In this document: positions 2,474-62,495 of the stretch, piece after piece | Position numbering within the stretch: the stretch's first letter is position 1 | Layout of the letters: each line of letters opens with the position of its first letter | NCBI GenBank assembly: GCA_943330855.2 | Contig: CALQJI020000020.1 | Coordinates: 1 to 64,000 of the forward strand | Direction of reading: 5' to 3' | From: Klebsiella pneumoniae | GTDB lineage: Bacteria; Verrucomicrobiota; Verrucomicrobiia; Limisphaerales; SXTU01 | DNA length: 64,000 bases | The notes under the pieces: model-generated | Told to the model about the DNA's origin: nothing | The model's input: only the letters and a program-made list of their open reading frames with translations | Databases searched by the model: none | Translations under genes and position numbers: made by a program

Positions 2474-5400
2474 TTAAGGCTCAATCAGGCGGACGCGGTA
2501 GAATCGCGGCCCGGCGGTCGGCGGGGTTTGGAACTCGATGTCGCGCCCGCTGCCCAGAACGTTGGTCGCGATAGCTGACCAATTCGTGCTACCCAGCGCG
2601 GAGGAAACTTCCAGAACGTAGGACTTGCCAGTTGCCGTGGGCCAGCGCAAGCGCGGGCCGCCGCTGATGAGCCCGGGCGCGCGCAGGTGCAGGCCGGATG
2701 TGGCGTCGTTCGGATCGGTGCCCGCGCGGAACTCCGCCCAGTTCGGGATGCCGTCACCATCGGCGTCGGCGCTGGCGGCGGAGAGCAAGTTGTTCAATGC
2801 GCCAAAGTGCTTCAACCGCCACCCATCGGAGATCCCATCACTCCACGAGGAGAAGTGGCGGGCGCGCATCGTAATAAGGCCGCCCTCGCGATGAGCGCGG
2901 ACGACGTCAATACCGGCGGGCGAAGCGGAGACGTGGTCGAAGCGGACGGCGTAGGCCGCGTCCGCGTCAGCACCCGCTGGCAGCGTGAAGAGCAATGTGC
3001 CGACGGCGGCATCGCCACTGAGGCCCGCAACGGAGTTGTTCAACCACGCGGCGGAGTAATTACCCACGCCGCGCGAGTGGCTGAGGCCCGGCGCGCCGAG
3101 CGCCGCCCCGGGGATGAACTGCACAGGCGCGGTGAGAACGGGTGAGCCATCGAGGGGGACGACCGTCAGATTCAGCATGAGCACGCGCAGCGGTTCGGTG
3201 CCGGAGACGCGGGCGGTAATAGGGATGCTCACCTGCTGGCCTGCGGTGCCGATGATCTCCCCGGCGCTGAAGTTGACGGACGGTTCGTCGGTCGGCGTGC
3301 CGAGTGACTGGGTGACACGGGTGGTTCGTGGCGCGGGCACGGGAGCAGCGGCCACTGTCTGCCCGACCACGCCACGGAAGTTGTTCGCGTTCGTTGTGGC
3401 GTAATGGATGCCGTTGGAACGGAAGCGGATGAAATTCGTGAGCGAGGCGTCCAACGAGCGGCGGAAGGTGACGAAGATGTCCGCCACGTTGAGCGTGCCG
3501 TCCCCGAAGGCGATGTTGTTGATGGTCAAAGTCGTGCCGGAGGAGACGGAGCCGGCAAACTGACCGCTCAGACGCAGCAGCGAAGTGCCCGGCACATTCG
3601 TGGCCAATCCGCAACACGAGTCCATCGCGTCAAACATGTCGCTGCCGATGGGCGGGCGGTTGAGCCCATAGACGGCGGACTGGAAAAGTTGCGTGAGGTC
3701 GTTGGCTAGTAGGTTCGTGTCGCCAAAGTCCGGCGCGTTGAACCAACGGAATGGGGCGACGTCACCCACGAGATAAGCGGGCGAGCCAATGGTCAACGTC
3801 TTCAGAGACGAGAGAGCGCCATTGGTGGGAGCCGCGATGAACACGTCCTCGCGGATGCCATCGGAGGTGGCCGAAGGACGCGTCAGCGAAACGCTGTAAG
3901 TCTGCCCGACCGTCGCATTGGTCGGGACGACGAAGCCGAAGGCGCCGACGACGACGCGCCCGGCTGAACCAAGGAAGGTTGTGTCGTGCGCTTGTGAAAA
4001 GGCGACGAGGTCCTGCGCCGTGGTGTCGTAGAGGTTGGTCCTGCCGAGTCGCTCGATCCAGCCAACGGAGAGCAGGTTGTTATTCGTTACCAACAGATTG
4101 GTAAAACCGGAACCAACGAAGATGGAGGGCGGGATGCGAATCCTGATGGTCGGGTCAATGGGGTCGGGCTTCATGAGCAAGGATTCGAAGCCCAGCACGG
4201 CGTTGCCGCCAGCCACGTTGGTGAGGTTCGGCCCAGTGAGGTTTGTGACGAACGTGGCGAACTGGAGGGAGTATATCTTCTGCCCAGCCACCAGTGTCAG
4301 CGTGATGGGGGAGTAGTTGGTCTGCCCGGCGGAAGCGATGAACTGGCTCGACGCCTCGCCGCTCTCGAAGCCGAACGAGAAAGTGTTGGCGACGAAGTTC
4401 GTGGGAGAGAACTCACGTGTGATCGTCGTGCTGTCGGCGAAGCTCCCCTTGAACGCCTTGATCTTGAAAGTCATGTTGCTCGCTCCCAATTGAAACGAGA
4501 AGTTCGTCCCGGGAAAGGCCACGGGGCCGAAGTTTGTTGCCGAAACCGTGGAGGTTGGCTCCACCCCGTTGGTGGTGTAAAACATCTGCGAATTCGTGGT
4601 GGCCACGCTCACGGTGAACAGTGCTGCGTTGTCTCCGGTAACGATCGGGCTGGCGGCCTGAAACTGGAAGCGGGCCTTGACCACACTGCTAGAGATGCGC
4701 CCGGATTTCACACTTTGAACTTTCACCGTTAGGTCAGCCAGCGGGCCCACCAGCGTGGCCGGCACGGGGAGTGTGTCGAGGATGTAGGTCGTGACCGAGC
4801 CGGAAGGCGCCGGGACGGTGTCGTTGAAAGGATCTGTCGGTGAGGCGCCAGAACTGAGAAGGGTGGTGACGTTGGCCTCGGCGGTGACGGCGATGACCGC
4901 GTCATTGATGAACACACCATCGGTGACAGGGGTGAAGATCGGGGTAACGCCAGTGGTGGCGTTGGTGGTGAGGGTGATGACGCCCACGACGGGATTGGCT
5001 ATTGCGGGCTGCGTTGCGGATTGCTGGATGCGGCGGATGGCCAAGTTGCCCGCGTCGGCGAAGAGGAACGCGCCGTTGAACACATCGGCGACGAGGCCGA
5101 TAGGGGAGTTGAGCCGCGCCACGTTGGTGGCCCCGTTCACGAAGCCGGCCTGGCCGGCCCCGCCCGCCGAGGTCTCCATGGTGTAGGTTCCGATGCTGGC
5201 ATTGGTAGCGAGTCGGCGGAGGGTGTGGTTGCCAGAATCGGAGATCAACAGCCCCGCCGTGCCCATCCAGTGCACTCCCCGCGGTTTGGCTAGCAGCCCG
5301 CTCAATGCAACGGAGCCGTTGGCGCTTCCTGCGGTGCCGAGTGAGCCGGCGCGGAGGGTGACAGTCCCGCCGGCGGAGACGGTCTTGATGACATGGTTCA

Positions 5401-6085
5401 ACGTGTCCGCCACCCACAGGTCGCCGCCATCTCCGACGCTGACGCCATTGGGTTGGCTGAAGCCGGTGGCGTAGGTGGTGACGGCGTTGGCCGTGTCAAT
5501 CTTTCGGATGACGTTGTTCTTCGAGTCGGCCACGTAAATGTTGCCGAGGGAATCCACCGCGAGGCCGATGGGGGTATTGAAACGTGCGACAGCACCTGTG
5601 CCGTTCGCCGATCCGGCGATGGTCGGTGCGCCCGCGATATTCGACACCACGCCGTCAAAGCCGACGTAGCGAATGGTGTGGTTACCGGAGTCGGCGACGA
5701 CGAGGCCGCCGCGGGTGGCGACGATGCCAGCGGGGTTGAAGAAGCGTGCGTTGAAGCCCGCGCTGGCCGTGGGATTGTCGTTGGTCCCGTTGCTGCCGGA
5801 CTGGTCATCGCCCGCGAGCACGGAGAGCACTGCAGTGCTCGGGACGAACTTCATGATCCGATTGGCGGAGACTTGCCCAAAGAAGGAGATGCCACCCTGA
5901 TCAGTTATGTAAAGTGTGCCTGCGGAATCCACGGCCACGCTGTGCGGCTCCACCAGCCCAGTGGCAACCACGCTATCCACGGACTGCGCGGTGGCGGTGG
6001 CCGCCCAACCTGCGATGAAGGCGGTGAGGCCGAGTCGGCAAGCGCGGGCGAAGGCCGTGGCGCGGGAGGCAGGAGAAGTTCTCAT
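2474..6085 (-). CDS. Giant secreted NHL-repeat / cohesin-like protein (paralogue 1)
   Basis: The start at 6085 (MRTSPASRA) is chosen because it gives a signal peptide ending ATATAQ and lies 14 nt after the upstream stop; the open frame itself extends further up. In the 1,203-residue product the first ~400 residues are NHL/beta-propeller repeats (recurring GNIYVADSKNN-like and SDSGNHT-like strands). A chitobiase C-terminal-like segment (FYTTNGVEPTS) follows, then a cohesin-like beta domain, two dockerin-like stretches with Asp/Asn ladders (FGDTNLLANDL; FGDGTLNVADI), a second cohesin-like domain, a Ca-binding DADGDGIPNWAEF linker and a short tail ending FYRVRLIEP. It is presumably extracellular. 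It is paralogous to its upstream neighbour and co-directional with the PilM-secretin genes. The molecular function is unknown. Confidence 0.85.
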   Translation of the reverse strand: MRTSPASRATAFARACRLGLTAFIAGWAATATAQSVDSVVATGLVEPHSVAVDSAGTLYITDQGGISFFGQVSANRIMKFVPSTAVLSVLAGDDQSGSNGTNDNPTASAGFNARFFNPAGIVATRGGLVVADSGNHTIRYVGFDGVVSNIAGAPTIAGSANGTGAVARFNTPIGLAVDSLGNIYVADSKNNVIRKIDTANAVTTYATGFSQPNGVSVGDGGDLWVADTLNHVIKTVSAGGTVTLRAGSLGTAGSANGSVALSGLLAKPRGVHWMGTAGLLISDSGNHTLRRLATNASIGTYTMETSAGGAGQAGFVNGATNVARLNSPIGLVADVFNGAFLFADAGNLAIRRIQQSATQPAIANPVVGVITLTTNATTGVTPIFTPVTDGVFINDAVIAVTAEANVTTLLSSGASPTDPFNDTVPAPSGSVTTYILDTLPVPATLVGPLADLTVKVQSVKSGRISSSVVKARFQFQAASPIVTGDNAALFTVSVATTNSQMFYTTNGVEPTSTVSATNFGPVAFPGTNFSFQLGASNMTFKIKAFKGSFADSTTITREFSPTNFVANTFSFGFESGEASSQFIASAGQTNYSPITLTLVAGQKIYSLQFATFVTNLTGPNLTNVAGGNAVLGFESLLMKPDPIDPTIRIRIPPSIFVGSGFTNLLVTNNNLLSVGWIERLGRTNLYDTTAQDLVAFSQAHDTTFLGSAGRVVVGAFGFVVPTNATVGQTYSVSLTRPSATSDGIREDVFIAAPTNGALSSLKTLTIGSPAYLVGDVAPFRWFNAPDFGDTNLLANDLTQLFQSAVYGLNRPPIGSDMFDAMDSCCGLATNVPGTSLLRLSGQFAGSVSSGTTLTINNIAFGDGTLNVADIFVTFRRSLDASLTNFIRFRSNGIHYATTNANNFRGVVGQTVAAAPVPAPRTTRVTQSLGTPTDEPSVNFSAGEIIGTAGQQVSIPITARVSGTEPLRVLMLNLTVVPLDGSPVLTAPVQFIPGAALGAPGLSHSRGVGNYSAAWLNNSVAGLSGDAAVGTLLFTLPAGADADAAYAVRFDHVSASPAGIDVVRAHREGGLITMRARHFSSWSDGISDGWRLKHFGALNNLLSAASADADGDGIPNWAEFRAGTDPNDATSGLHLRAPGLISGGPRLRWPTATGKSYVLEVSSALGSTNWSAIATNVLGSGRDIEFQTPPTAGPRFYRVRLIEP

Positions 6086-6099
6086 GCAGTTCGCAGTGT

Positions 6100-9000
6100 T
6101 CAAGGCAGCACCTTCAGACGGAAGTAGCGCGGCCCGCCCGGGGTCACGGTCTGGATGAATTCCCTCAAGTTGCCGTCGCCGAGGTTCGTGACCACCGGCG
6201 TCCAGTTCGGGCTGATCAAGTCCGTGTTGCTCTCCAGCACGTAGAGTTTGCCGGGCGCGCTCAGGAGCTGGAAGGCGAGGTCGCGCGCGCCGTTGCGCCA
6301 ACCGCCGGGGGTGAGCTGCAAGCGGGAGTTGGCCCGTGTCGGGTCCGTGCCGGCGAGGTATTCGAGCGCGTTCACCACGCCGTCATTGTCGGGGTCGGCG
6401 AGGTCGGCGGCGGCCGCGTTGGCCGCGCTGCCGAAGAAGGCGACTTTCCACTCATCGGAGATGATGGAGAGCGGCGCGGGCGCGGGACGAGCAACCCAGA
6501 CGGAGGCAGCGCGCGTCTCGAAGTTGTATTGCGTGAAGAAATTGGGCGCGCCATCCGCGTTGGCAAAGCTCACGGAGTAGCTGGCCCCTGCCGTAGCAGT
6601 AGCCGGGACGGTGAAACGCACGACGCCGAGGAAGTTGCTGCTGCTGGCCGGCATCGCAAGCTGCCCGAGGTTCCACGCGCTCACCACGGCGTTGATCGCG
6701 GCGGGCTGGATGGTTGCGTTGGGCAGTGCGGGGATGAACTGCGCTTGCTGCGCAAGGGCGGGTGAACCATCCGCCGGGCTCACCACCGCGCGGAATTGCA
6801 GACCAGCGAGCTGCGCACCGGGCGCGACACGCGCGAAGACCGGCACGTTGACCGTCGTGCCGGGCAGGACATTTTCCAACGGCAGCGCGCCGAGGGCGGC
6901 TTGGCGGTTCCATACTTCACCGGGCGGCGGAAGCGATGCCGCCTTCAGTGCCGCAGGGACCAAGGTCGTGCCAACCGTGGTGCGAACACCGCCCGACCAG
7001 GTGCGGGACCAGTTCGTGGTGCTCACGCCAAGAGCGGGATTTGTGTTCAGCCGCAGCGAGCGAAGAAGGATGATCTGCCAGTCAAGGAAGCGGATTTGGC
7101 CGTCGCCGCCCACTGTGCCGGCGGTGTCCTCGGGGAAGGCATCCATCGCATCAAAGGCATCGCTGAAGGCGAATGGCAGGCGGGTGCCGGACGCGGCGGC
7201 GAAGGCGTTGTTCACATCGGCGTTGTCGAGGTTGCCGTTGCCGAAATCACCAGCGTTATACCAGCCCCCGGGCGAGGTGTCGCCGACGCGGTAGGAGAGA
7301 TTGGTGACGGTGATGAGGCGGGTGCCAGCAGCCGCGATGGTGACGATGTTCTGCGCAGCATCGGAAGTGGCTGAGGGCTGAAGGATGTCAATGTTGTAGG
7401 TCTGGCCGGAGGCCGCACCCGCCGGGATGGGGACGCTCAGGAGCGCGGCAACAGCGAAGCGGTTGACGAGCAAGTTCGCGTTGGTGCCGACAAATGTGAT
7501 GACCAACCCGCGCGTGGTTCCGGCCGTGTAGGCCAGCGAACTGAAATTGGCCGCAGTGCCGCCGGTGGTGATCGTGATGAAGTCATTCGTGCCGATGGAC
7601 TGCGCGCCGAAACTCGCGCCCACCGTCGGAGCCGCCGCGTTGGGGCTGACTTCGACGCGGAACTGGAGCGTGCGCACGGTGTCGTTGGCGCGGAGGTTGA
7701 GCACGATGGGCACCACCACGCGCGCGCCCACGCCGGCGAAGATGTCGGTGTTCAAACTCGCGGGAACTCCGATGGTGCTGGCCGTGACGGCGGTGCCGGT
7801 GATGTTCGTGCTCGCGCTGTTGGTTCCGCTGACAACAAACGCGGCGACGCGCAGCCCCGTGAGGTCATTCGTCGGGTTTTGCCACTGAATGGTGCCCACG
7901 CCGCCGACGATGCTGACAGGCGTGCTGTTAGTGCTCGGCTCGGTGCCGTCGGTGGTGAAGAAGACGTTCGTGCTGGAGCTGGTGACGGCGATCTTGGTGC
8001 CGAGCGGAAAGTAACCGCTGTTCGGACTCATGCCGAGGGAAGGAGGGTTCAGCGCGCTGCCACTGCCACCACTGCCCACGCCGCTGGGGCCGGCGAGGCC
8101 CGCGCCAGTGACCTTGCGGATGACATGATAGAATTGCTCGGTCACGTAGGTCGTGCCGCTGCCATCCACGATGACCCCTGTGGGAAGCCGGGATTCTGCG
8201 AACGCCGCCGTCCCGTCCGCCCAGCCGGGATAAACGGAGGGATGCACGATGTTCACCCAGAAATTGGACTGGATGCCGTAGAGGATGGTGGTCGCACCCG
8301 TGGTGTCCACGAGCCGGACTTGATGGTTCCCCTGATCGGCGACGACGAGGATGTTGTTGCCGGCCTTGGCCAGATGGCGCGGTGAGTTGAACTGCGCGTT
8401 GGTGCCAACGCCCGTCGTTATGCCGGCTGCATTCGTGCGTCCGGCGAGAAAGCTGACGGCGAGCGTGTTCGGGTCCACGAGGTGAATGGTGTGCCGGGAG
8501 GAATCGCTGACGGCGATCTTGCCGCTGTCGAGCACCTCCACGCCACGCGGGGCGACGAACGTGCCAGCCGGCAGTAGATTCGCGCTGACGGTGAAGTTGG
8601 AGAGGGCCACGCGGCGCAATGCCCCGGCTTCTTCGACGACGTAGAGATTGCCAATGCCGTCGAAGGCGAGCGCATTGGGCGCGGTGAATGTTCCAGCCGG
8701 GGTGATGGGGATGACGGTCGCGCCGAAGGAGAGGTTGATGAGATCCACCCGGTAAATGCGACCATCGCCCGCCGTGAGGATGTAAAGGTTGGTGTTCCCG
8801 TCCATAGCCACGTCCACCGGGGAGCTGAAAATGAGGTTCCCGCCGGAGGAGTTGGTAGCAAGCGTCGTGGTGAGACCGGAGGAGAGGTCAAGGCGGCGGA
8901 CGGTGTTGTTCAGGCTGTCGGCGAGCCAGAGAATGTTGCCGGAAGGCTCGAACGCAAGACCGCCGGGGGTGTTGAACTGCGCCGAGGTGGCGATGCTGCC

Positions 9001-21930: not shown

Positions 21931-22611
21931 TTACTTAGCGGCCATGCTGAGGTCGGCCTTCGCGCCGCCCTTCACTTCGATGTCCTTCTCGACCTTGCCG
22001 CCCTTGCGGTGCTCGACGACCAGCTTGTATTTGCCGTCCGGCACGCCGGTGATCTTGAACGACCCGTCCTTGCCGCTGACCGCATGGAACGGAGTCTCGA
22101 ACACGCTGACGTAGGAGAACATCCAGGGGTGCACATCGCACTTGAAGCGGAGGAACTTCTCGGCCTTCGCAAAGGTGAAGTTAAGCGGAGCGCCACCGGG
22201 CAACTGGGCCTTGTTCGCCTCGGGGTTACCTTCGACCGTCGGGGTCGGATGGACGTTGTGCATCGCTTTGTCGGAATTCAACACGCGGATGGTCTGGCCG
22301 ACCTGCGCGGAGTTGATGTAGGGCTGGTATTCGCATCCCACTTGGTCGATGATGACGGGCTTGTCCGCCGCGGCGCCGCCCTTGGCACCTTCGATATACA
22401 CCACGCAGTCCGCCAGGCCGCCGGTGGCGTCTGCCACGTAAAAGCGCGTCGTCATCTTCTTGCCGGCACGCAGCCCGCCGCAGGTGGGGTCAATAACGAT
22501 TTCGCTCTCCGGTTTCGGCGTTCCCGTGAGGGTAATCTTACCGGTGACATCGCCTGCCAAGGCGGTGCTGACAATGGCGAGGGCAGTGAGGGTCAGTAAC
22601 AGTGATTTCAT
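21931..22611 (-). CDS. Secreted cupredoxin-like protein with C-terminal carboxypeptidase-regulatory-like fold
   Basis: The 226-residue protein has a clear signal peptide (cleavage near TALAG). The central domain carries residues expected for a copper site: Cys93 (GCEYQPY), His118 and His121 (MHNVH), Cys158, His161 and Met164 (KCDVHPWM). The C-terminal ~60 residues (GSFKITGVPDGKYKLVVEH) resemble a carboxypeptidase-regulatory beta sandwich. It may carry electrons in the periplasm. The same two-part domain, without the ligands, is fused into the M56 gene at 55891. The gene is monocistronic. Confidence 0.8.
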   Translation of the reverse strand: MKSLLLTLTALAIVSTALAGDVTGKITLTGTPKPESEIVIDPTCGGLRAGKKMTTRFYVADATGGLADCVVYIEGAKGGAAADKPVIIDQVGCEYQPYINSAQVGQTIRVLNSDKAMHNVHPTPTVEGNPEANKAQLPGGAPLNFTFAKAEKFLRFKCDVHPWMFSYVSVFETPFHAVSGKDGSFKITGVPDGKYKLVVEHRKGGKVEKDIEVKGGAKADLSMAAK

Positions 22612-22765: not shown

Positions 22766-22843
22766 CGTAGCCGCCTAGGTGAGCAGGCGGAACCAGCGTT
22801 GTGGATGGACCAAGAAATCCGCCTCTTGACCTCGGCGGCTACG
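22766..22843. repeat. Palindromic repeat, GTAGCCGCC subfamily (copy 1)
   Basis: Arms 22766-22791 and 22818-22843 match at 22 of 26 positions and start with CGTAGCCGCC. The copy at 47711-47782 has the same arms. It sits just past the ribH stop and may terminate its transcript. The rest of the 238-base gap up to 22612 shows no gene. Confidence 0.8.
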
Positions 22844-46845: not shown

Positions 46846-47715
46846 ATGAATCCCGAACGGCGCATTGCGAATAACGAATCTCCGGCAGCGCGCGCTGGGA
46901 GGATTCCAAAATCTCCCTTCCCAATTCTCCATTACCTCTCTCTCTACGCCGCCCTCTGGCGCAACTCCGTCATCCGCGAGATGAGCTTCAAGGTGAACTT
47001 CCTGATGTGGCTCGTCGTGGAGACGCTGTGGTTCGCCCTGCAACTCAGCTTCATCAGCGTGCTCTACCTGCACACCGAGAGCATCGGCACCTGGACGAAG
47101 TGGCAGGTCGTCGCGCTCGCGGGCACGAGCCATCTCATCCAGCAGCTCTTCACCGCGCTGTTCCTCACGAACCTCACCGCGCTCTCCGAGCACATCCGCA
47201 CGGGCAAGCTCGACTTCATGCTGCTGCTGCCCGTCAACACCCGCTTCCTCGTCAGCTTCCGCCAGGTGGACCTCGGCGGTTTCGTCAGCGCGGCGGGCGC
47301 GCTCGGGGTCATCGGCTACGCGCTGCACCGGCTCGGCCACACGCCCAGCGTGGCACAAGCCGTGGGCTTCCTCCTGCTCGTCCTCGTCGGCATCCTCATC
47401 CATTACTCCCTCATGCTGATCCTCTCCGCGACGAGCTTCTGGACTGTGCGCGCGCAAGGCATCGTCTGGGGTTACTACAACCTCTTTAACATCGCCCGCC
47501 TGCCCGACGAAGCCTTTCGCGGCCCGTTCAAGGCCGTCTTCACCTATGCCCTGCCCATGCTGCTCGTCTCCAACGTCCCGGTGAAACTCCTCGTGGACAA
47601 ACTCGCTTCCCCGCTCGAAATCCTCCTGCTCGTCACCCTCGCCGCGCTCATCTTCGCCGCGTCGGAACTACTCTGGCGTTTCGCCCTCAAGCGCTACACC
47701 AGCGCCAGCTCGTAG
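46846..47715 (+). CDS. ABC-2 family permease (DUF990-like), subunit 2
   Basis: The 289-residue membrane protein has six helices. The characteristic stretch is ALWRNSVIREMSFKVNFLMW near the N-terminus, then HIRTGKLDFMLLLPVNTRFLVSF. It pairs with subunit 1. Its TAG stop (47713-47715) is part of the left arm of a palindromic repeat. About 30 non-conserved residues precede the first conserved stretch, so the ATG at 46846 may not be the true start. Confidence 0.85.
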   Translation: MNPERRIANNESPAARAGRIPKSPFPILHYLSLYAALWRNSVIREMSFKVNFLMWLVVETLWFALQLSFISVLYLHTESIGTWTKWQVVALAGTSHLIQQLFTALFLTNLTALSEHIRTGKLDFMLLLPVNTRFLVSFRQVDLGGFVSAAGALGVIGYALHRLGHTPSVAQAVGFLLLVLVGILIHYSLMLILSATSFWTVRAQGIVWGYYNLFNIARLPDEAFRGPFKAVFTYALPMLLVSNVPVKLLVDKLASPLEILLLVTLAALIFAASELLWRFALKRYTSASS

Positions 47716-47782
47716 CCGCCGAGGTGAGGAGGCGGATTGGCTGTCAGTCTGGAAATTCCGCCGCCTCCCCTCGACGGCTACG
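47711..47782. repeat. Palindromic repeat, GTAGCCGCC subfamily (copy 2)
   Basis: Arms 47711-47736 and 47757-47782 match at 23 of 26 positions and contain the permease stop codon. The remaining bases to 48001 have no gene; TGTTTCATCTGTGTTCCATC at 47960 is a shared intergenic word. It probably acts as the permease terminator. Confidence 0.85.
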
Positions 47783-55154: not shown

Positions 55155-55317
55155 GGCGGACTCTAATCCCGGCCCACGGAGTGGAAAGGGAAAATTGGAA
55201 CGGTGAGGAGGGAAGTGGAGGTGAAGAATGATTTTCCGTGGGGCAATTTCCTTGCCCTCAATTTCTTTGCCCTGCACTCAGCCGTGGGTGGACGAATCCC
55301 GCGCCCCAAACTCACGC

Positions 55318-55347
55318 TTGACCTAACAACTACCCAGGTAGTATTAA
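55318..55347 (+). promoter_or_regulatory. BlaI-type promoter with operator in the spacer
   Basis: The -35 box TTGACC (55318-55323) and -10 box TATTAA (55342-55347) are 18 bp apart. A perfect palindrome ACTACCCAGGTAGT (55329-55342) fills the spacer and touches the -10 box, like the dyads bound by BlaI/MecI repressors. It is 44 bases before the BlaI-type gene, so the repressor should control its own transcription and that of the downstream M56 gene. The rest of the 237-base gap shows no gene. Confidence 0.8.
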
Positions 55348-55391
55348 CTCGGTCGTCGCCACTGCCAACCCAGAACCCAGCACCCCCTCCC

Positions 55392-55778
55392 ATGCCAAAA
55401 CCACCCACCCATCGCCTTGGCGAACTCCAGCTCCGCATCCTCGAAGTCCTCTGGCAGCAGGAACAAGCCCCCGTCTCCGCCGTCCACGAGGCCCTCGGTG
55501 GCAGCGCTGAGTTCGCCTACACCACCATCGCCACCATGCTGCGCAAGATGGAGGACCGCCGCCTGGTCCGGCATCGCACCGAAGGCCGCAGCTTCATCTA
55601 CCGCGCCGCCGTCGCTGCCGACGATGTCACTCGGAACGTCGCCGACCATCTCGTGGACCGCTTCTTCTCCGGCTCCCTCGCCGAAGCCGTCAGCCACCTC
55701 CTCGACACACGCGCCGTCAACAAAGCCGAGTTGAGCGAACTGGAAAAACTCATCGCCGACCGCAAGAAACGCCTGTGA
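55392..55778 (+). CDS. blaI: BlaI/MecI-family transcriptional repressor
   Basis: The start at 55392 (MPKPPTHRLGE) gives 128 residues. A winged-helix (LGELQLRILEVLWQ, TIATMLRKMEDRRLVRH) and a C-terminal dimerisation helix (VADHLVDRFFSGSLAEAVS) fit the family. Repressors of this type are cleaved through a BlaR1 metallopeptidase, and the M56 gene 112 bases downstream is the expected partner. It likely represses itself via the palindrome at 55329. Confidence 0.92.
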   Translation: MPKPPTHRLGELQLRILEVLWQQEQAPVSAVHEALGGSAEFAYTTIATMLRKMEDRRLVRHRTEGRSFIYRAAVAADDVTRNVADHLVDRFFSGSLAEAVSHLLDTRAVNKAELSELEKLIADRKKRL

Positions 55779-55795
55779 ATCCCAGCCCTAGACCC

Positions 55796-55875
55796 GCCAC
55801 AAAAGGCCCAGAAGGCACAAAAAAACACCCCTACAAACCCACCTCCATTTTGCGACTTCTGCGCCTCTTTGTGGC
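55796..55875. repeat. Inverted repeat between the repressor and M56 genes
   Basis: GCCACAAAAGGCCCAGAAGG at 55796 (27-nt arm to 55822) faces a 28-nt arm at 55848-55875 ending TTTGTGGC, with several mismatches. It belongs with the intergenic CCACGAAGG-type repeats and may attenuate read-through from the repressor into the M56 gene. Confidence 0.65.
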
Positions 55876-55890
55876 TAAACCGCCTTCCCC

Positions 55891-58800
55891 ATGAACTCAC
55901 CTCACCTCCTCGCCCCGTGGCTCGCGCCACTCGGCTGGCTCGCCCTTGAAGCCACCGTGGTCATCCTCGCCGCACTCGCGCTCCAGCCCCTCCTGCGCAC
56001 CGCCGCCGCCCGCCGCACCCTGTGGCGTGCCGCGCTACTCGCCCTCGTTGCCGTGCTCGCCGCCGAACTCACCGGCACCGGCAGCCAGCTCCCCGCGCAA
56101 CTCCGCCTCGCGTGGCAAACCACCTTCCCCAAACCCGCCCCGCCGTTGTTGACGTCCTCATCCACGCCCGAACTCTCCTTCACCCCCGCGCCTGTCTTCC
56201 CCCTCGCCCCCATCGGGGGAGAGGGCCGGGGCGAGGGGGCGTTCACTGCGCCCGAACCGCTGCAATTCGAACCCGCAGCGTCCCTCCCACCGTCGCCTCG
56301 CTCACTTTCCCACTCACCCACTTTCTCACCCACTTTCTCACCCGCTCCGGCCCTCCTCTGGCTCACCGGCATCGTCGCCCTGCTCGCGCGCTCCGCGTGG
56401 ACCCACGCCGGCTTCGCGTGGCTGCGGCTGCGACACTTCATCCCCGCCGCCGAGGCGTTGCGCGAACGCGTCGCCGCCCTCGCCGCGCGACTCGGCCTGC
56501 GCCGCCGCGTGCGTGTGCTCGCCAGCGAACGCCTCCGCACCCCCGCCGCCTTCGGTTGGCTGCGACCCGGCGTAGTTGTGCCCGGCGACTTCACCGCCCG
56601 CTTCGCCCCCGCGCAACAGGACGTGATGCTCGCCCACGAGCTGGCGCACCTCGCCGCGCGCGATCCGCTCTGGCAACTCCTCGCCGACCTCGCCGCCGCC
56701 GCGCTCTGGTGGCATCCGCTCGTGTGGGTCGCGCGCCGCCAGCATCGCCTCGCCGGCGAACTCGCGGCCGACGACGCCAGCCTCGCGCTGCCCGACGGCC
56801 CCGTTGTCCTCGCGGAATGTCTCCTCGCCCTCGGCCACGAAGCCGCCGACTGCCCGCGCGCCGCGCTGGGCATGGCCGGCTTCCGCTCGCAACTCGGCCG
56901 CCGCGTCGAGCGCCTCGTGGCCCTTCCGCCGGGCGATTGGCAACCCGCAGGCAAACTCCGCTCCTTCGCGCAAACCGCCTCCGCCCTCGTCCTCCTCGCC
57001 GCCCTCGCCCTCCTGCCCGGTTGCGCTGCGAACCGCACGGCCACCGAAGCGCCCACTCGCACCGTCGCCAAGTGGTGGCAGGCGAAGAAATCCCCCGCAG
57101 GAGACGACGTGAGGAGTCTCACTTCAGCGGACAGCGGACAGCGAACAGCCGTCAGCAAGAAACTCCTCACCTCGTTACCCACCAATGACCAACCCGTGCT
57201 CATTCAAGGCCGCGTTCTCTTCAGCGGCACCCCACCGGCGGAGCACAACATCCCACTGCCGCCAACCGTTCTCGTTGCCCGCACGAACGCCCCGATGAAA
57301 ACCCGGTTCTACCGCGTTGCGACCGATGGCGGACTGGCCGATGTGGTGGTTTACGTGAAGGCCGGTCTGCCCAAGCAGGATTACCACCCCCTCTCCGAAG
57401 CGGTGGTCGTGCATGCACAAAACTACGAGTTTCAGCCTTACATCAGTGCCGTGCAGGTCGGCCAGCCGGTCATTTGGGACAGTGTTCGGACCGGCACCGT
57501 GGGAGTTCAGGTGATGCCCACGAACTATCCAAACCGGCAATTCAGCCGGGTGGTGAGCGAGGAACACTACGTGGAAAACACCTTCCCCGCGCCTGAGTTG
57601 TTCATCCGAGGCACTGTGTATGTTTATCCGTGGATGATGCACTACCTCAGCGTCTTCGATCATCCCTACTTCGCAGTGACGGACGCCGAGGGCCGCTTCC
57701 GCTTCCCGCAAGCGCTGCCGCCCGGCAAATACACCCTCGCCGCCGTCCACCGGCAAACGGATGAGAGCCTTCAGGAACTCGACCTGACCCAGCCATTGCC
57801 CGCCGGGCAGCCACTCGACGTGCCATTCGTCATGGCAGCGAAAGTTTTCCCGCCCTATCGCTTCGCTGTCGGAGATGTGCTGAAGGTCGATATCTACCAG
57901 CGCAGCGACTTGCGGAAGGAAACGCGCGTGCTGCCCTCCGGGGACATTGAGTTGCCGTTGATTGGTGCCATCCCCGTGGCCGGAAAAACTATTTCCGAAG
58001 TGCGGGCCGCCATCAAGAAGGCCTACGAACCGGCGCACGTCGAGACCGCGCACGTCAATGTGGTAGCTGTTCAAACGGACCGACCGTTCGCCCCAGGACC
58101 GCTGTTGTTCACTCCGAAGCGGGCAGCTGATTTTGCCGCCTCCGCCCCGCTCCCGCGCGCGGAGTTCCTCGAACGCAAAGCCCGCGTGGAAGCCGAAATC
58201 AAGGAGGCCGAGAAGACCTTCCCACCCGCGCACCCGAAGATGCTCGGCCTGCGGAACCAACTGGAGTCGGTGGAGGAGGCGTTGAAGCAGCTTAGGCTTG
58301 CCCCACAGGAACTGGCCTCCGTCCGGTTTCAACTAGGGCGGTTCATCTCGGTCGGAACAAGGCTGCAAACCGCAAACTTCTCCACCTTGGAACGGCTGGC
58401 TCTACTCGCAACGTGCAGCGGCATGATTCAAGGCACGGCGTCGTCTCGGGGGATTAATACTTGGGAGGATCTGGAGCGCCAGAAGCTATCATTGGAGCGC
58501 ACCATCAAAGAGCAGCTACGGACATATCCGGCCGGGCACCTCAAGATGAAGGAGCTCTTCAGCCAGCGGGAAGCCCTTGAAGTCGCGTTGGTGGCGGAGT
58601 TGAAGCAGGCCCTCGCGCGTTTTGAAACCGTCAAACAGGACCTCATCCGGCGCGAAGAACAGCTTTCCCGGTTGATGGGAGAGTCGCAGACTAAACCACC
58701 CGCCCCAGCCAAACCCGGCGCGAGTCTGCCCGCCCCCGTAGGTGCCGACGTGAGGAGGCTCACTTCTCCCCAGCCGCCAAACGCCATCCCCCAGACCCCG

Positions 58801-59709
58801 CCGGCCAGTCAGAGACTCGTCACCTCGTCACCTACCAACGCCTTGGACATCAGCGTGGGTCGGCAGTTGTTCGTGGACGACTTCCTCATCGCGAGCAACT
58901 CGCTCCAACGCATGTGGCATCAGCCCATCGTCAGTGACTTGCCACAACGAACGGTGATGACCACCGGGGCATTGCGGGGGGAGTTTCCATTCCCGGCCGA
59001 CGTCTGGTATGACACCGCCATCCAAGAGTTCCGGCTGCGGATTGCCTTCCGCACCAACAGCGCAGAATTTCGCTCCCCCAGCGGCACCAACTGGCCCGCC
59101 CATCCCCGTTTACTTGCTATTGCACCGCCAACCGGTTTGACGGAACGGCCCAAGTGGGCCAGCACGGATTACGAATCGCACCGCGTCACGTTGCATCGCG
59201 TCTATCCGCGTGCGGATGAGCCTTCTTCGTCGGGACTGTATCTGTCGGTGGGTTGGCGCGGCGTTCCGGCCAGTAGCTTTTCGCCGGAGCGCGTCTTCAT
59301 CCCAGCACCACGACCTGCCGACGGCTCGCAGTGGAGCGACCTGCATCCGCTGACCAACGGCTTCCTCGTCGTAGGGCGGAACCTGCACTTCTACTTTGGT
59401 GGCAGGGTGCAAAAGCCCGGTGAGACGCACGCGAACGCAGCCGTCGGCCTCGCCACGCTGCGCCGCGACGGCTTCGCCTCGCTGGACGCCGGGCCGGAAG
59501 GCGGCGTGATGACCACCAAGCCCGTGACCTTCACCGGCAATTTCATGTTCGTGAACCTGAAGACCAATGCGCCCGACGGCGAACTGCGCATCGAGATTGT
59601 GCATCCCGACGGACGACCCATCGTGGTGACCCATAAAACGACACCAAGCAGCAGTCCCAACCGTTCGCGCTCGCGAACGCGGTGCGGCTCGCCGCTGACC
59701 AAACGCTGA
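55891..59709 (+). CDS. Chimeric M56 (BlaR1-like) peptidase + cupredoxin-like + polysaccharide-export + glycosidase-like protein
   Basis: The 1,272-residue frame reads as modules. Residues 1-~385 are a BlaR1/M56 membrane metallopeptidase with helices and zinc motif HELAH (His249, Glu250, His253). Residues ~404-432 are a repeat-encoded linker. Residues ~435-645 are homologous to the gene at 21931 but without copper ligands (NYEFQPYI, VYVYPWMM). Residues ~653-725 are a polysaccharide-export domain (YRFAVGDVLKVDIY ... LIGAIPVAGKTISEVR). A coiled coil spans ~755-945, a second repeat linker ~950-985, and a GH32/43-like module ~985-1260 begins ISVGRQLFVDDFLIASN. It ends out of frame with a probable single-base loss in AAAA at 59635-59638; with one more A it would join the next frame as one ~2,095-residue protein. 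Confidence 0.8.
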   Translation: MNSPHLLAPWLAPLGWLALEATVVILAALALQPLLRTAAARRTLWRAALLALVAVLAAELTGTGSQLPAQLRLAWQTTFPKPAPPLLTSSSTPELSFTPAPVFPLAPIGGEGRGEGAFTAPEPLQFEPAASLPPSPRSLSHSPTFSPTFSPAPALLWLTGIVALLARSAWTHAGFAWLRLRHFIPAAEALRERVAALAARLGLRRRVRVLASERLRTPAAFGWLRPGVVVPGDFTARFAPAQQDVMLAHELAHLAARDPLWQLLADLAAAALWWHPLVWVARRQHRLAGELAADDASLALPDGPVVLAECLLALGHEAADCPRAALGMAGFRSQLGRRVERLVALPPGDWQPAGKLRSFAQTASALVLLAALALLPGCAANRTATEAPTRTVAKWWQAKKSPAGDDVRSLTSADSGQRTAVSKKLLTSLPTNDQPVLIQGRVLFSGTPPAEHNIPLPPTVLVARTNAPMKTRFYRVATDGGLADVVVYVKAGLPKQDYHPLSEAVVVHAQNYEFQPYISAVQVGQPVIWDSVRTGTVGVQVMPTNYPNRQFSRVVSEEHYVENTFPAPELFIRGTVYVYPWMMHYLSVFDHPYFAVTDAEGRFRFPQALPPGKYTLAAVHRQTDESLQELDLTQPLPAGQPLDVPFVMAAKVFPPYRFAVGDVLKVDIYQRSDLRKETRVLPSGDIELPLIGAIPVAGKTISEVRAAIKKAYEPAHVETAHVNVVAVQTDRPFAPGPLLFTPKRAADFAASAPLPRAEFLERKARVEAEIKEAEKTFPPAHPKMLGLRNQLESVEEALKQLRLAPQELASVRFQLGRFISVGTRLQTANFSTLERLALLATCSGMIQGTASSRGINTWEDLERQKLSLERTIKEQLRTYPAGHLKMKELFSQREALEVALVAELKQALARFETVKQDLIRREEQLSRLMGESQTKPPAPAKPGASLPAPVGADVRRLTSPQPPNAIPQTPPASQRLVTSSPTNALDISVGRQLFVDDFLIASNSLQRMWHQPIVSDLPQRTVMTTGALRGEFPFPADVWYDTAIQEFRLRIAFRTNSAEFRSPSGTNWPAHPRLLAIAPPTGLTERPKWASTDYESHRVTLHRVYPRADEPSSSGLYLSVGWRGVPASSFSPERVFIPAPRPADGSQWSDLHPLTNGFLVVGRNLHFYFGGRVQKPGETHANAAVGLATLRRDGFASLDAGPEGGVMTTKPVTFTGNFMFVNLKTNAPDGELRIEIVHPDGRPIVVTHKTTPSSSPNRSRSRTRCGSPLTKR
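57103..57176. repeat. Palindromic repeat, in-frame copy A
   Basis: Arms 57103-57120 and 57159-57176 match at 15 of 18 positions, with core GACGTGAGGAG. In the M56 gene it encodes the linker between the peptidase and the cupredoxin-like domain (DDVRSLTS ... LLTSLPTN). The centre is a CGGACAG tandem run. Confidence 0.8.
58738..58835. repeat. Palindromic repeat, in-frame copy B
   Basis: Arms 58738-58761 and 58812-58835 match at 20 of 24 positions. Together with copy C it forms a ~110-bp direct repeat (58731-58842 and 59970-60081) that differs at only a few positions. It encodes ADVRRLTSP ... QRLVTSSPTN between the coiled coil and the glycosidase-like module. Confidence 0.9.
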
Positions 59710-62177
59710 TGACCGTGAATTGGCAGAACGGGACACAAGACCTCGCCATGCTCATCGGTCGCCCCGTGTGCTTCCGCTTCCACCTGAAGAACGCCAGCCT
59801 CTACTCATTCTGGGTCAGTCCCTCGCGCTTTGGTCGCAGCCTCGGCCGCGTGGCCGGTGGCGGCCCACACTTCACGAACGACGTGGACACGATTGGTAAC
59901 CGCTCCTACCAGCCGTTTCCCGTCGTCCGCACGAACACGCCTGCGCCCAAGCCTGGCGCGAGCCTTCAGCCCGCCCCCGTAGGAGCCGACGTGAGGAGGC
60001 TCACTTCTCCCCAGACGCCAGACGCCATCCTCCAGACCCCGCCCGCCAGTCAGAGACTCGTCACCTCGTCACCTACCAACGCAGCGACAGTGCTGCGCGA
60101 TCCCGCCGACGTGGCGGAGGCGGAAGCCTTGCGTCGGCAGGAGCCGAGGCTGGTGCTGGACAACCTGCTGGGCGAGGCTCGGCAGTTTCAGAAAGCCAAG
60201 GCGTGGACCAATGCGGTGGTGCGTTACGAGGAGGCCAGCGGACACGCCAAGCTGCTGGGCAGCGTCTCAAACGTGGACAAGAGTTACCGAGATGCGCTGG
60301 TCGGGCTGACCCACTGCCGCATCCAGCTCGCGACGGAGCTACAGGAGAAATACCAATTCAAGGCCGCTGCTGCCGAGGTGGAGAAGGTGCTGCTATTCGA
60401 GCCGAACAGCCCGAAGGTCGCGGAGTTCAAGAAGTTCAATGAGCATGTGGAAGCTGCGCATGACGGGAGGTCATCACGCCAGCAGGCTCCTGCGGGACCG
60501 AACGAATTGAGAGAAGCCCGCTCCAAAATCATGAGCCTCGTCCGCGACGGGAAACTCTACTACGAGGTGGGCGAGTATCTCGAAGCGCGGAAGCGGTTGG
60601 AGGAAGCCATCGTCTTGGACCCGGAGAACGACGCAGCGTTCTTCTATCTCCGGCCCGTGCTGGAGGCGCAGTTTGAGGAGGCGAGCCGCAAGCGATTCCG
60701 TGAAGACCGCGAGCGCGTCGTCGCCGTGACTAAAAACTGGAACGAGCGGCCCCGCAACAACTCCCAAGTCCTCTTCCCCACGCACAGCAGCAAGGGAGCG
60801 CAGATCATCAACCGCAAGCTGGACGAAATCACTCTGCCGGAAGTCCGCTTCGACAGCGTCACGTTGCCGGAAGTCGTGAAGTGGCTTAAGGCTGCCGCGG
60901 AGCAGTCGGACCCAGAGCCAGACCCGAAGAAGAAGGGGCTTAACTTTCTCATCGACAATGTGGTGGTTGATTACATCTCGGCGAACGTGCAAGCGGGTGC
61001 CCCGGGCAGGGCAGTCGCCGCTCCCGGTCCATCGGTGTTGGACCCGGTCACGGGCCAACCCCTCCCGGCCAGAGGCAAGGCCCTCCCAACGCCCGCCCTC
61101 GCCACCGCGCTGGTCAAGGTGACGACCACCCTGACGAACCTCACCTTGCGCCAGACGCTGGATGTCATCTGCAAGACCGCCGAGGTGAAGCTGCCGGACG
61201 GAGGGAGTGTTGGACTGAAATACTCCATCGAGGAATACGCCATCGTCTTCACGCCCAAGCTGCCGGAGCAGGCGGCGCTCTTCGCGCGGATGTTCAAGGT
61301 GGACCCGGACCGTTTTGAGGGCGGGCTGCGGAGCATCGAGTTGCCCTCCAACCCCACCAACAACGCCACTTTCAACAGCCACCGCCCGGTGCCGGGGAAA
61401 GCCGCAGGGCACCCCGCTCAAGGCAATGTCAGCGGCGTAGTGGGCACGAACCAAACGGATGGGTTCAACATCCTCTTGCGCGATTACTTCCGCGCGGCAG
61501 GCGTTGGAAACCTCGGCCCGACCAACAGCCCGGACGCGACGCAGGTCTTCTTCAACGACCGCAACGGCCTGCTCCTCGTCCGCGCGTCGGTGCAGGACTT
61601 GGACATCATCCAGATGGCGATTGAGCTGCTGAACGTGGAGCCGCCGCAGGTTTTGATTGAGGCGAAGTTTGCCACGCTGAACCAGAACGACCTCAAGGCG
61701 CTGGGCTTTGACTGGGCGCGCACCAATGCCGGCATTCTCACCGCACCTCAGTTCGCGGTGCTCGTGCGCGCCTTGGAGCAGCGCGATGGCAACGAGGTGG
61801 CGTCGCTACCCAAGGTGACGACGACTTCGGGCAAGCAGGCCGTGATCGAACTCCCGGCGGATGCGAAGGCCAAAGGCGGGGTGGCGCAGGGCGTGCAGTT
61901 GGAGTTGATGCCGACCGTGGCTGCTGATGGATATACCATCAATCTCTCGGTAATCATGTCGCGTGAGGGCAAAGCGATCTCGATGTCGCAATGCGTCGTG
62001 TGGGATGGGCAGACGGTGATGCTGGGATTCCCCGACGCACCCGTCGCCGGCCAGCCGGGGGCGAAGCCTCCGCGCCTCCTGCTCTTCCTGACGCCCACGA
62101 TCGTGGGCCCCACCGGCCAGCGCGTGCATACAGACGCGGAAATGCCCTTCATACCCGCCGCACCCGCGAAGAAGTAG
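59682..62177 (+). CDS. Continuation: TPR-like region and secretin-type C-terminus
   Basis: The track begins at GTG 59682, but the same frame is open from 59637 and finishes the glycosidase-like module (GRPVCFRFHLKNASLYSFW). ATG 59709 overlaps the upstream stop as TGATG, so re-initiation is also possible. Residues 100-132 are the third linker (copy C); ~140-330 are TPR-like with AKAWTNAVVRYEEASGHA; ~375-520 secretin N-domain-like (EVRFDSVTLPEVVKWLKAAA); ~555-660 a second N-domain; ~660-820 a secretin core with LPKVTTTSGKQAVIEL, GVQLELMPTVAADGYTINL and PRLLLFLTPTIV. Its TAG stop lies next to a palindromic repeat. In the restored protein a BlaR1-type sensor would be joined to a secretin. Confidence 0.78.
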   Translation: MRLAADQTLMTVNWQNGTQDLAMLIGRPVCFRFHLKNASLYSFWVSPSRFGRSLGRVAGGGPHFTNDVDTIGNRSYQPFPVVRTNTPAPKPGASLQPAPVGADVRRLTSPQTPDAILQTPPASQRLVTSSPTNAATVLRDPADVAEAEALRRQEPRLVLDNLLGEARQFQKAKAWTNAVVRYEEASGHAKLLGSVSNVDKSYRDALVGLTHCRIQLATELQEKYQFKAAAAEVEKVLLFEPNSPKVAEFKKFNEHVEAAHDGRSSRQQAPAGPNELREARSKIMSLVRDGKLYYEVGEYLEARKRLEEAIVLDPENDAAFFYLRPVLEAQFEEASRKRFREDRERVVAVTKNWNERPRNNSQVLFPTHSSKGAQIINRKLDEITLPEVRFDSVTLPEVVKWLKAAAEQSDPEPDPKKKGLNFLIDNVVVDYISANVQAGAPGRAVAAPGPSVLDPVTGQPLPARGKALPTPALATALVKVTTTLTNLTLRQTLDVICKTAEVKLPDGGSVGLKYSIEEYAIVFTPKLPEQAALFARMFKVDPDRFEGGLRSIELPSNPTNNATFNSHRPVPGKAAGHPAQGNVSGVVGTNQTDGFNILLRDYFRAAGVGNLGPTNSPDATQVFFNDRNGLLLVRASVQDLDIIQMAIELLNVEPPQVLIEAKFATLNQNDLKALGFDWARTNAGILTAPQFAVLVRALEQRDGNEVASLPKVTTTSGKQAVIELPADAKAKGGVAQGVQLELMPTVAADGYTINLSVIMSREGKAISMSQCVVWDGQTVMLGFPDAPVAGQPGAKPPRLLLFLTPTIVGPTGQRVHTDAEMPFIPAAPAKK
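59979..60076. repeat. Palindromic repeat, in-frame copy C
   Basis: Arms 59979-60002 and 60053-60076 are near-identical to copy B and share its centre. It encodes the linker between the end of the glycosidase-like module and the TPR region. Confidence 0.9.
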
Positions 62178-62185
62178 CCCGGCAG

Positions 62186-62280
62186 GGTGACGACGTGAGG
62201 AGTCGCTGACTTCCACTCCGCACTCCGCACTCCGCATTCCGCATTCCGCATTTCAGATGGAGACTCCTCACGTCGTCACC
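62186..62280. repeat. Palindromic repeat between convergent stops (terminator)
   Basis: A perfect 19-bp inverted repeat (62186-62204 and 62262-62280; GGTGACGACGTGAGGAGTC and its complement) has its ends at the TAG stop of the secretin frame (62175-62177) and the TAG stop of yacG (62280-62282). The centre is an ATTCCGC/ACTCCGC tandem run. It is the intergenic member of the same family as copies A-C. Confidence 0.9.
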
Positions 62281-62495
62281 TACTCGGGCTTGTCCAGATA
62301 TTCGCCGGGGGGAAGCTCCTCGTAGCCGGCGAAGTGCTCCGGGCGCAGCGGCTCGGAGACGACGTGCTCCTCGCTGAACCACTGGCCCAAGTCCACGAGC
62401 TTGCACCGCTTCGAGCAGAAGGGACTGAACGGCGTGGCGAGCCAGTCGCCGGTTTGCTTGCAGGCGGGGCACTTAATGTCCGTGGGGCGGCTCAT
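62280..62495 (-). CDS. yacG: DNA gyrase inhibitor YacG-like zinc protein
   Basis: The 71-residue protein has the Cys4 zinc motif CPACKQTGDW ... PFCSKRCKLVDLGQWFSEE. YacG proteins bind GyrB and block its DNA binding. The length and motif spacing match the family. It is distant from the parE-like gene, and its stop sits in the palindrome at 62280. Confidence 0.92.
   Translation of the reverse strand: MSRPTDIKCPACKQTGDWLATPFSPFCSKRCKLVDLGQWFSEEHVVSEPLRPEHFAGYEELPPGEYLDKPE

Follow-up and report, generated by a model that had tools for sequence, protein, structure and literature searches.

In-frame GTAG-tagged REP dimers at exchanged module joints of a BlaR1-like M56-secretin gene, and their possible role as recombination adaptors

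The chimeric gene and its modules

The stretch of DNA analysed here, called the window, comprises the first 64,000 nucleotides of contig CALQJI020000020.1 (assembly GCA_943330855.2), from a genome placed in the order Limisphaerales of the Verrucomicrobiota. Close to its 3' end lies a chimeric gene that begins with a BlaR1-type M56 peptidase, ends with a secretin and carries copies of a palindromic element between its modules. Judged by its sequence, this palindrome is an inverted dimer of two GTAG-tagged repetitive extragenic palindromic (REP) sequences with the tags outward and a spacer of variable length. The features of the locus are as follows.

55392-55778, + strand: BlaI-type repressor gene (Penicillinase_R, PF03965), upstream neighbour of the chimeric gene
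55891-59709, + strand: open reading frame (ORF) 1, with the M56 (BlaR1-type) peptidase, cupredoxin-like and CarboxypepD_reg-like parts, Poly_export, coil and start of the glycosidase-like module
57097-57182: REP dimer copy 1, arms 57097-57120 and 57159-57182; in frame at the M56/cupredoxin-like joint; outer tags degenerate
58738-58835: REP dimer copy 2, arms 58738-58761 and 58812-58835; in frame at the coil/glycosidase-like joint; spacer type II
59637-59645, + strand: frame change from ORF 1 to ORF 2; mutation or assembly error
59682-62177 (open from 59637), + strand: ORF 2, with the remainder of the glycosidase-like module, TPR and Amuc_1098-like secretin
59979-60076: REP dimer copy 3, arms 59979-60002 and 60053-60076; in frame at the glycosidase-like/TPR-secretin joint; spacer type II; duplicate of copy 2
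62183-62283: REP dimer copy 4, outside the gene, past the stop codon at 62175-62177

The initial annotation described a single giant gene, but in this genome there are two ORFs in different frames, the change falling near 59,640 within the module between copies 2 and 3. Across it, homology to intact relatives goes on in the other frame. Uninterrupted orthologues are present in two independently assembled genomes of the same genus, G008 (2238 codons) and G006 (at least 2911 codons, a lower bound because the gene runs to a contig end).

The module joints first proposed hold. Peptidase_M56 (PF05569) terminates upstream of copy 1, the interval from copy 1 to copy 2 contains Poly_export and a coiled-coil-like stretch, and the Amuc_1098-like TPR-secretin follows copy 3. 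Two of the module names stand less firmly. Structure predictions of the two unnamed modules have pLDDT values of 45 and 55, and their top folds, GH43-like and cupredoxin, come with E values of at least 0.001 for every match, so that "cupredoxin-like" and "glycosidase-like" are weak, non-significant fold labels. A free-standing relative of the cupredoxin-like module (32% identity) is encoded at 21934-22548 on the - strand of the window. By analogy with the BlaI/BlaR1 arrangement, the modules may form the periplasmic part of a sensor.

Anatomy and distribution of the REP element

Each 24-nt arm consists of the tag GTAG, a 5-nt stem, the loop GA-[C/G]-GTGA-[G/C]-GA and the second strand of the stem. 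The tag, or a close variant of it, is found in the 74 arms collected and is degenerate in a few copies such as the one at 57097. All five stem positions pair in 36 of these arms and four of five in another 26, and the stem and the loop-closing pair co-vary in a compensatory manner (GAGAC/GTCTC, GAGCC/GGCTC and CCGCC/GGCGG). The GTAG tag, the compensating stem and the GTGA loop therefore give the unit the anatomy of a GTAG-tagged REP. The arms fall into three classes, A (GTAGGWGAC), B (GTAGCAGCC) and C (GTAGCCGCC), and are separated by 38-50 nt in the chimeric gene and by about 20-60 nt among dimers generally.

That a single palindromic element has three copies inside the gene and one outside, as had been noticed at the outset, is confirmed by pattern counts. 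A 14-base core matches 11 times within the window, where shuffled sequence gives 2.4 matches on average, and a 20-base half-arm, with up to two mismatches, matches 71 times in the genome to which the window belongs (G000, a 5.4-Mb assembly of 153 contigs, 86% complete), against none for the reversed control. The half-arm occurs in 38 of the 58 genomes searched, at 1 to 220 copies each. The copies are dispersed and often form inverted dimers, and about three quarters of them lie outside genes. With its GAGAC/GTCTC stem and GTGA-containing loop this is a new REP family, for which no cognate REP-associated tyrosine transposase (RAYT) was found among the Y1_Tnp loci described below. Linkage to a RAYT gene is common for GTAG-type REPs, though by no means invariable.

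Copies 1-3 contain no stops, keep the phase of the surrounding codons and encode Ser/Thr/Pro-rich linkers of the form VGxDVRxL...LVTSSPTN, in agreement with the initial annotation. Copies 2 and 3 are 95% identical across 117 nt that include flanking codons (upstream PKPGAS), so they represent one duplication and the in-gene copies cannot be counted as three separate events. Compared with shuffled sequences, copy 4 alone forms a far stronger hairpin (z -7.6, the strongest of the four); the values for copies 1-3 are -2.9, -2.5 and 0.0, which lends little weight to an RNA function of the copies within the gene.

Module exchange among the orthologues

Orthologues of the chimeric gene were compared among five congeners of one genus, the window genome, G004, G006, G007 and G008, with both window ORFs treated as one reading frame when flank collinearity was mapped. 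The window has the layout M56/REP/cupredoxin-like, Poly_export, coil/REP/glycosidase-like/REP/TPR-secretin. In G008, M56/REP is followed by the cupredoxin-like module, Poly_export and part of the coil, then by a REP, more coil and the secretin. In G006, M56/REP leads into coil, a REP arm, the glycosidase-like module, two Poly_export domains and a REP; three secretin-N-like domains, coil, a REP arm, Poly_export-SLBB, a further REP and the TPR-secretin come next. G004 (M56 tail/REP/secretin part) and G007 (M56 N-terminus/REP/secretin part) keep only M56 remnants, which a REP links straight to the secretin. The joint after the M56 tail is thus followed by three different downstream modules, cupredoxin, coil-glycosidase or the secretin directly, and the glycosidase-like module stands on opposite sides of Poly_export in the window and in G006.

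At the DNA level, the homology between orthologues begins or ends at REPs. It spans M56 and the REP and stops at the 3' edge of the REP between window 56642-57179 and G006 1-544 (83%), and likewise between G008 2563-3110 and G006 1-548 (90%). Before the glycosidase-like module it restarts inside the 3' arm of a REP (window 58804-58925 against G006 843-964, 93%), as it does before the TPR module (window 60046-60963 against G006 5302-6252). The homology of window 55308-58290 to G008 stops 4 nt short of a REP of G008. Flanks are non-collinear in 25 of 27 informative comparisons at REPs and in 205 of 507 controls (Fisher p 4e-8), comparisons that are not independent of one another. This test replaced a breakpoint permutation test with masked REPs (P 0.08-0.23), which was discarded because masking itself makes breakpoints at REPs and divergence makes many more.

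The REPs themselves are mosaic. Spacers are of two types, against a background median identity of about 49%: type I in units G008a, G006a and G006e (84-86%) and type II in W2 and W3 (copies 2 and 3 of the window), G006c, G008b and G004 (72-92%). The type does not depend on the joint: at the M56 joint, G008 and G006 have type I but G004 has type II, and at the TPR joint the type I spacer of G006 contrasts with type II in the window. Most dimers have arms of the same class; G006 456-547 is a B..A hybrid and G006 5241-5332 an A..B hybrid, although the enrichment of hybrids relative to the listed dimers is weak (p about 0.04, counted by hand). All units of the chimeric gene are read in codon phase 0, whereas phases 0 and 1 are both common elsewhere.

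In-frame copies elsewhere in the genomes

The initial annotation supposed that each copy marks a domain joint and that the repeat mediated stepwise domain gain. The wider census, made in its own genome on the stretches around the listed half-arm matches, bears out the dispersal of the family and shows that in-frame entry is not peculiar to this gene. In the window genome, 15 of 56 copies with known surroundings are read through in an open frame with coding sequence on either side, three of them being those of the window, and in G006 the same holds for 5 of 22. The targets in the window genome encode IspG, UvrA, a PSD1/DUF1553 protein, a molybdopterin oxidoreductase, a TPR-CHAT protein, a DNA glycosylase, a HEAT/cytochrome protein, a transglutaminase-DUF2126 protein and a class-III aminotransferase; those in relatives encode an ABC exporter (between the membrane and ATPase domains), an FtsX-type permease and RsmH. 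Roughly equal shares of the in-gene copies stand at Pfam boundaries and within domains, those within domains often in a loop with both flanks the same in relatives.

Orthologues with an empty site demonstrate insertion for IspG, the aminotransferase, the oxidoreductase and others; the glycosylase and PSD1 sites are partly shared, and UvrA has an older REP site shared among relatives. In-frame entry is thus a general property of the element, independent of domain joints. The idea that the repeat brought about domain gain is accordingly supported for the chimeric gene, by comparison with relatives, and does not extend to the family at large. In-gene copies are translated in two of the possible codon phases; the remaining one, in which TAG and TGA stops would be read, was never seen.

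Relatives without a REP often carry tandem repeats of about 7 bases (GGCAAAA, ACGAATC) at the site, as for IspG (loci L238, L242 and L243) and the aminotransferase (L237, L259 and L261), and units like these also fill REP spacers. At the in-frame UvrA site, followed in three species (L005, L255 and L263), class A has given way to class B in both arms together in G006, which suggests conversion or replacement of whole dimers.

Possible recombination at REPs and alternative explanations

The following course of events would account for these patterns. REP dimers scattered through the genomes of this order would be kept inside genes where their phase is translatable and the site is a loop or linker, there to be translated into some 30 residues rich in Ser, Thr and Pro. 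In this genus they would have come between the modules of the BlaR1-like M56-secretin gene in one common codon phase. Because REP dimers are alike in sequence and phase, a crossover between any two could join different modules with the frame kept, and over time modules would be exchanged, duplicated and deleted at REPs. From the breakpoints and the mosaics we infer that the joins arose by recombination within the REPs and not in some other way at linkers. The likeliest of the readings, at about even odds, is that a receptor-like gene evolving fast received REP dimers in its linkers, where they came to serve as phase-matched recombination sites. The fuller proposal, in which they are translated, phase-matched adaptors by which the periplasmic part of a BlaR1-like receptor was rebuilt time and again, a REP-driven bacterial equivalent of exon shuffling, is put forward more tentatively, at a little short of even.

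Several observations weigh against this proposal. In other families of the order there are M56-secretin, M56-TPR-secretin and M56-LysM-secretin genes without REPs, and an M56-cupredoxin fusion, with a distant M56, occurs in a genome of another family that lacks the GTAG-REP family. Within the genus, the glycosidase/Poly_export joint of G006 and the coil/secretin joint of G008 have changed with no REP present. Part of the non-collinearity of flanks is also to be expected, since linkers align poorly. Given these REP-free fusions and changed joints, REPs are not required for module turnover in the M56-secretin family, although they may accelerate or guide it. Moreover, reading about 50 Y1_Tnp loci, mostly in REP-bearing genomes, revealed no association that would point to a cognate transposase. 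Only one locus (G006:C27) has a nearby REP copy, 0.6 kb off, and the two RAYT-like Y1_Tnp genes of the window genome, L159 (G000:C18) and L180 (G000:C91), are flanked by the other REP families GGAGCGCGGCNTTCANGCCGC and GTAGTCGCAACCTTCAGGTTGCGA. In a search for donors, free-standing glycosidase-like and secretin genes in 20 loci were not flanked by a GTAG-REP dimer, loci L145 and L150 having one single B-type arm each and nothing more.

The nearest rival, quite possible but somewhat improbable in our judgement, treats the REPs as passengers: linkers exchange modules by ordinary illegitimate recombination, and REPs pile up where insertions are tolerated. The REP-free turnover in other families agrees with it, as do the in-frame REPs in loops with collinear flanks and the lack of any sign of exchange at the roughly half of in-gene REPs elsewhere that stand at domain boundaries. 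It explains less well why homology stops at or inside REPs within a few nucleotides, why spacer types and arm classes form a mosaic across the joints, and why all units share a single phase. An unlikely alternative is that REP dimers spread in the gene by gene conversion or transposition only, with the linkers homogenised and the modules inherited and differentially lost. The concerted change of both arms at the UvrA site, the duplicated unit W2/W3 and the likeness of spacers between joints are what such spread would produce, but differential loss needs a very large ancestor with all modules in an order fitting all species, and the window and G006 have the glycosidase-like module on opposite sides of Poly_export. 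That the locus of the long ORF is decaying or misassembled and its joints belong to no real protein is very improbable, for although the frame is broken in the window genome and only M56 remnants persist in G004 and G007, the gene is intact in the independent assemblies of G008 and G006 and every REP keeps the frame.

Relation to known elements

REPs with GTAG tags, their dimers (bacterial interspersed mosaic elements, BIMEs) and in-frame dimers, including one in uvrA of the verrucomicrobium O. terrae, were described by Di Nocera et al. 2013 (PMC3733652), and in-frame REPs were proposed there to be neutral in linkers or loops. The present family resembles these in its tag, its short stem with alternative complementary stems, its inverted dimers with variable spacers, its dispersal and its in-frame copies; it differs in belonging to a new stem/loop family and in that the in-frame units of one gene stand at exchanged module boundaries. 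In-frame use of REPs is thus already known, and exchanged module boundaries at in-frame REPs are not reported in PMC3733652.

The likeness to Rickettsia palindromic elements (RPEs) seen in the initial annotation is upheld as regards in-frame entry into ORFs: RPEs, as PMC10969869 relates from Ogata et al. 2000 and 2002, are palindromes in frame in unrelated protein genes. RPE-4 and RPE-6 are CGTC-tagged (PMC3733652), unlike the GTAG-tagged window unit; the window element works like an RPE but, by its tag rather than by sequence alignment, is not classed as one. Palindromic amphipathic repeat coding elements (PARCELs; Roske et al. 2010, PMC2996958) are likewise protein-coding palindromic DNA shuffled between genes, but they are tandem amphipathic domains of 25 residues, whereas REP units are single, disordered-looking linkers of about 30 residues. 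The literature searched, mostly without subscription papers, contained reports of in-frame REPs, RPEs and PARCELs and none of module exchange at REPs or for RPEs.

In eukaryotic exon shuffling, phase-compatible boundaries join modules without loss of frame. The joints of the chimeric gene are similarly phase-matched; unlike those of exons, they are themselves translated, so that the DNA of the boundary remains represented in the protein. In-frame REPs have so far been regarded as tolerated selfish DNA. If they do give frame-safe crossovers, a widespread class of bacterial repeats would provide a mechanism for building multidomain proteins.

Other palindromes of the window

Dimers of class-C REPs (GTAGCCGCCGAGGTGAGGAGGCGG) are found outside genes at 22767-22842 and 47712-47781 of the window. 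An unrelated G+C-rich palindrome of the CCCTCGCCCC...GGGGCGAGGG type also occurs in frame in linkers of the chimeric gene, at 56200-56240 (+ strand) in the N-terminal linker of M56 in the window and at about 5170-5235 of locus L126.

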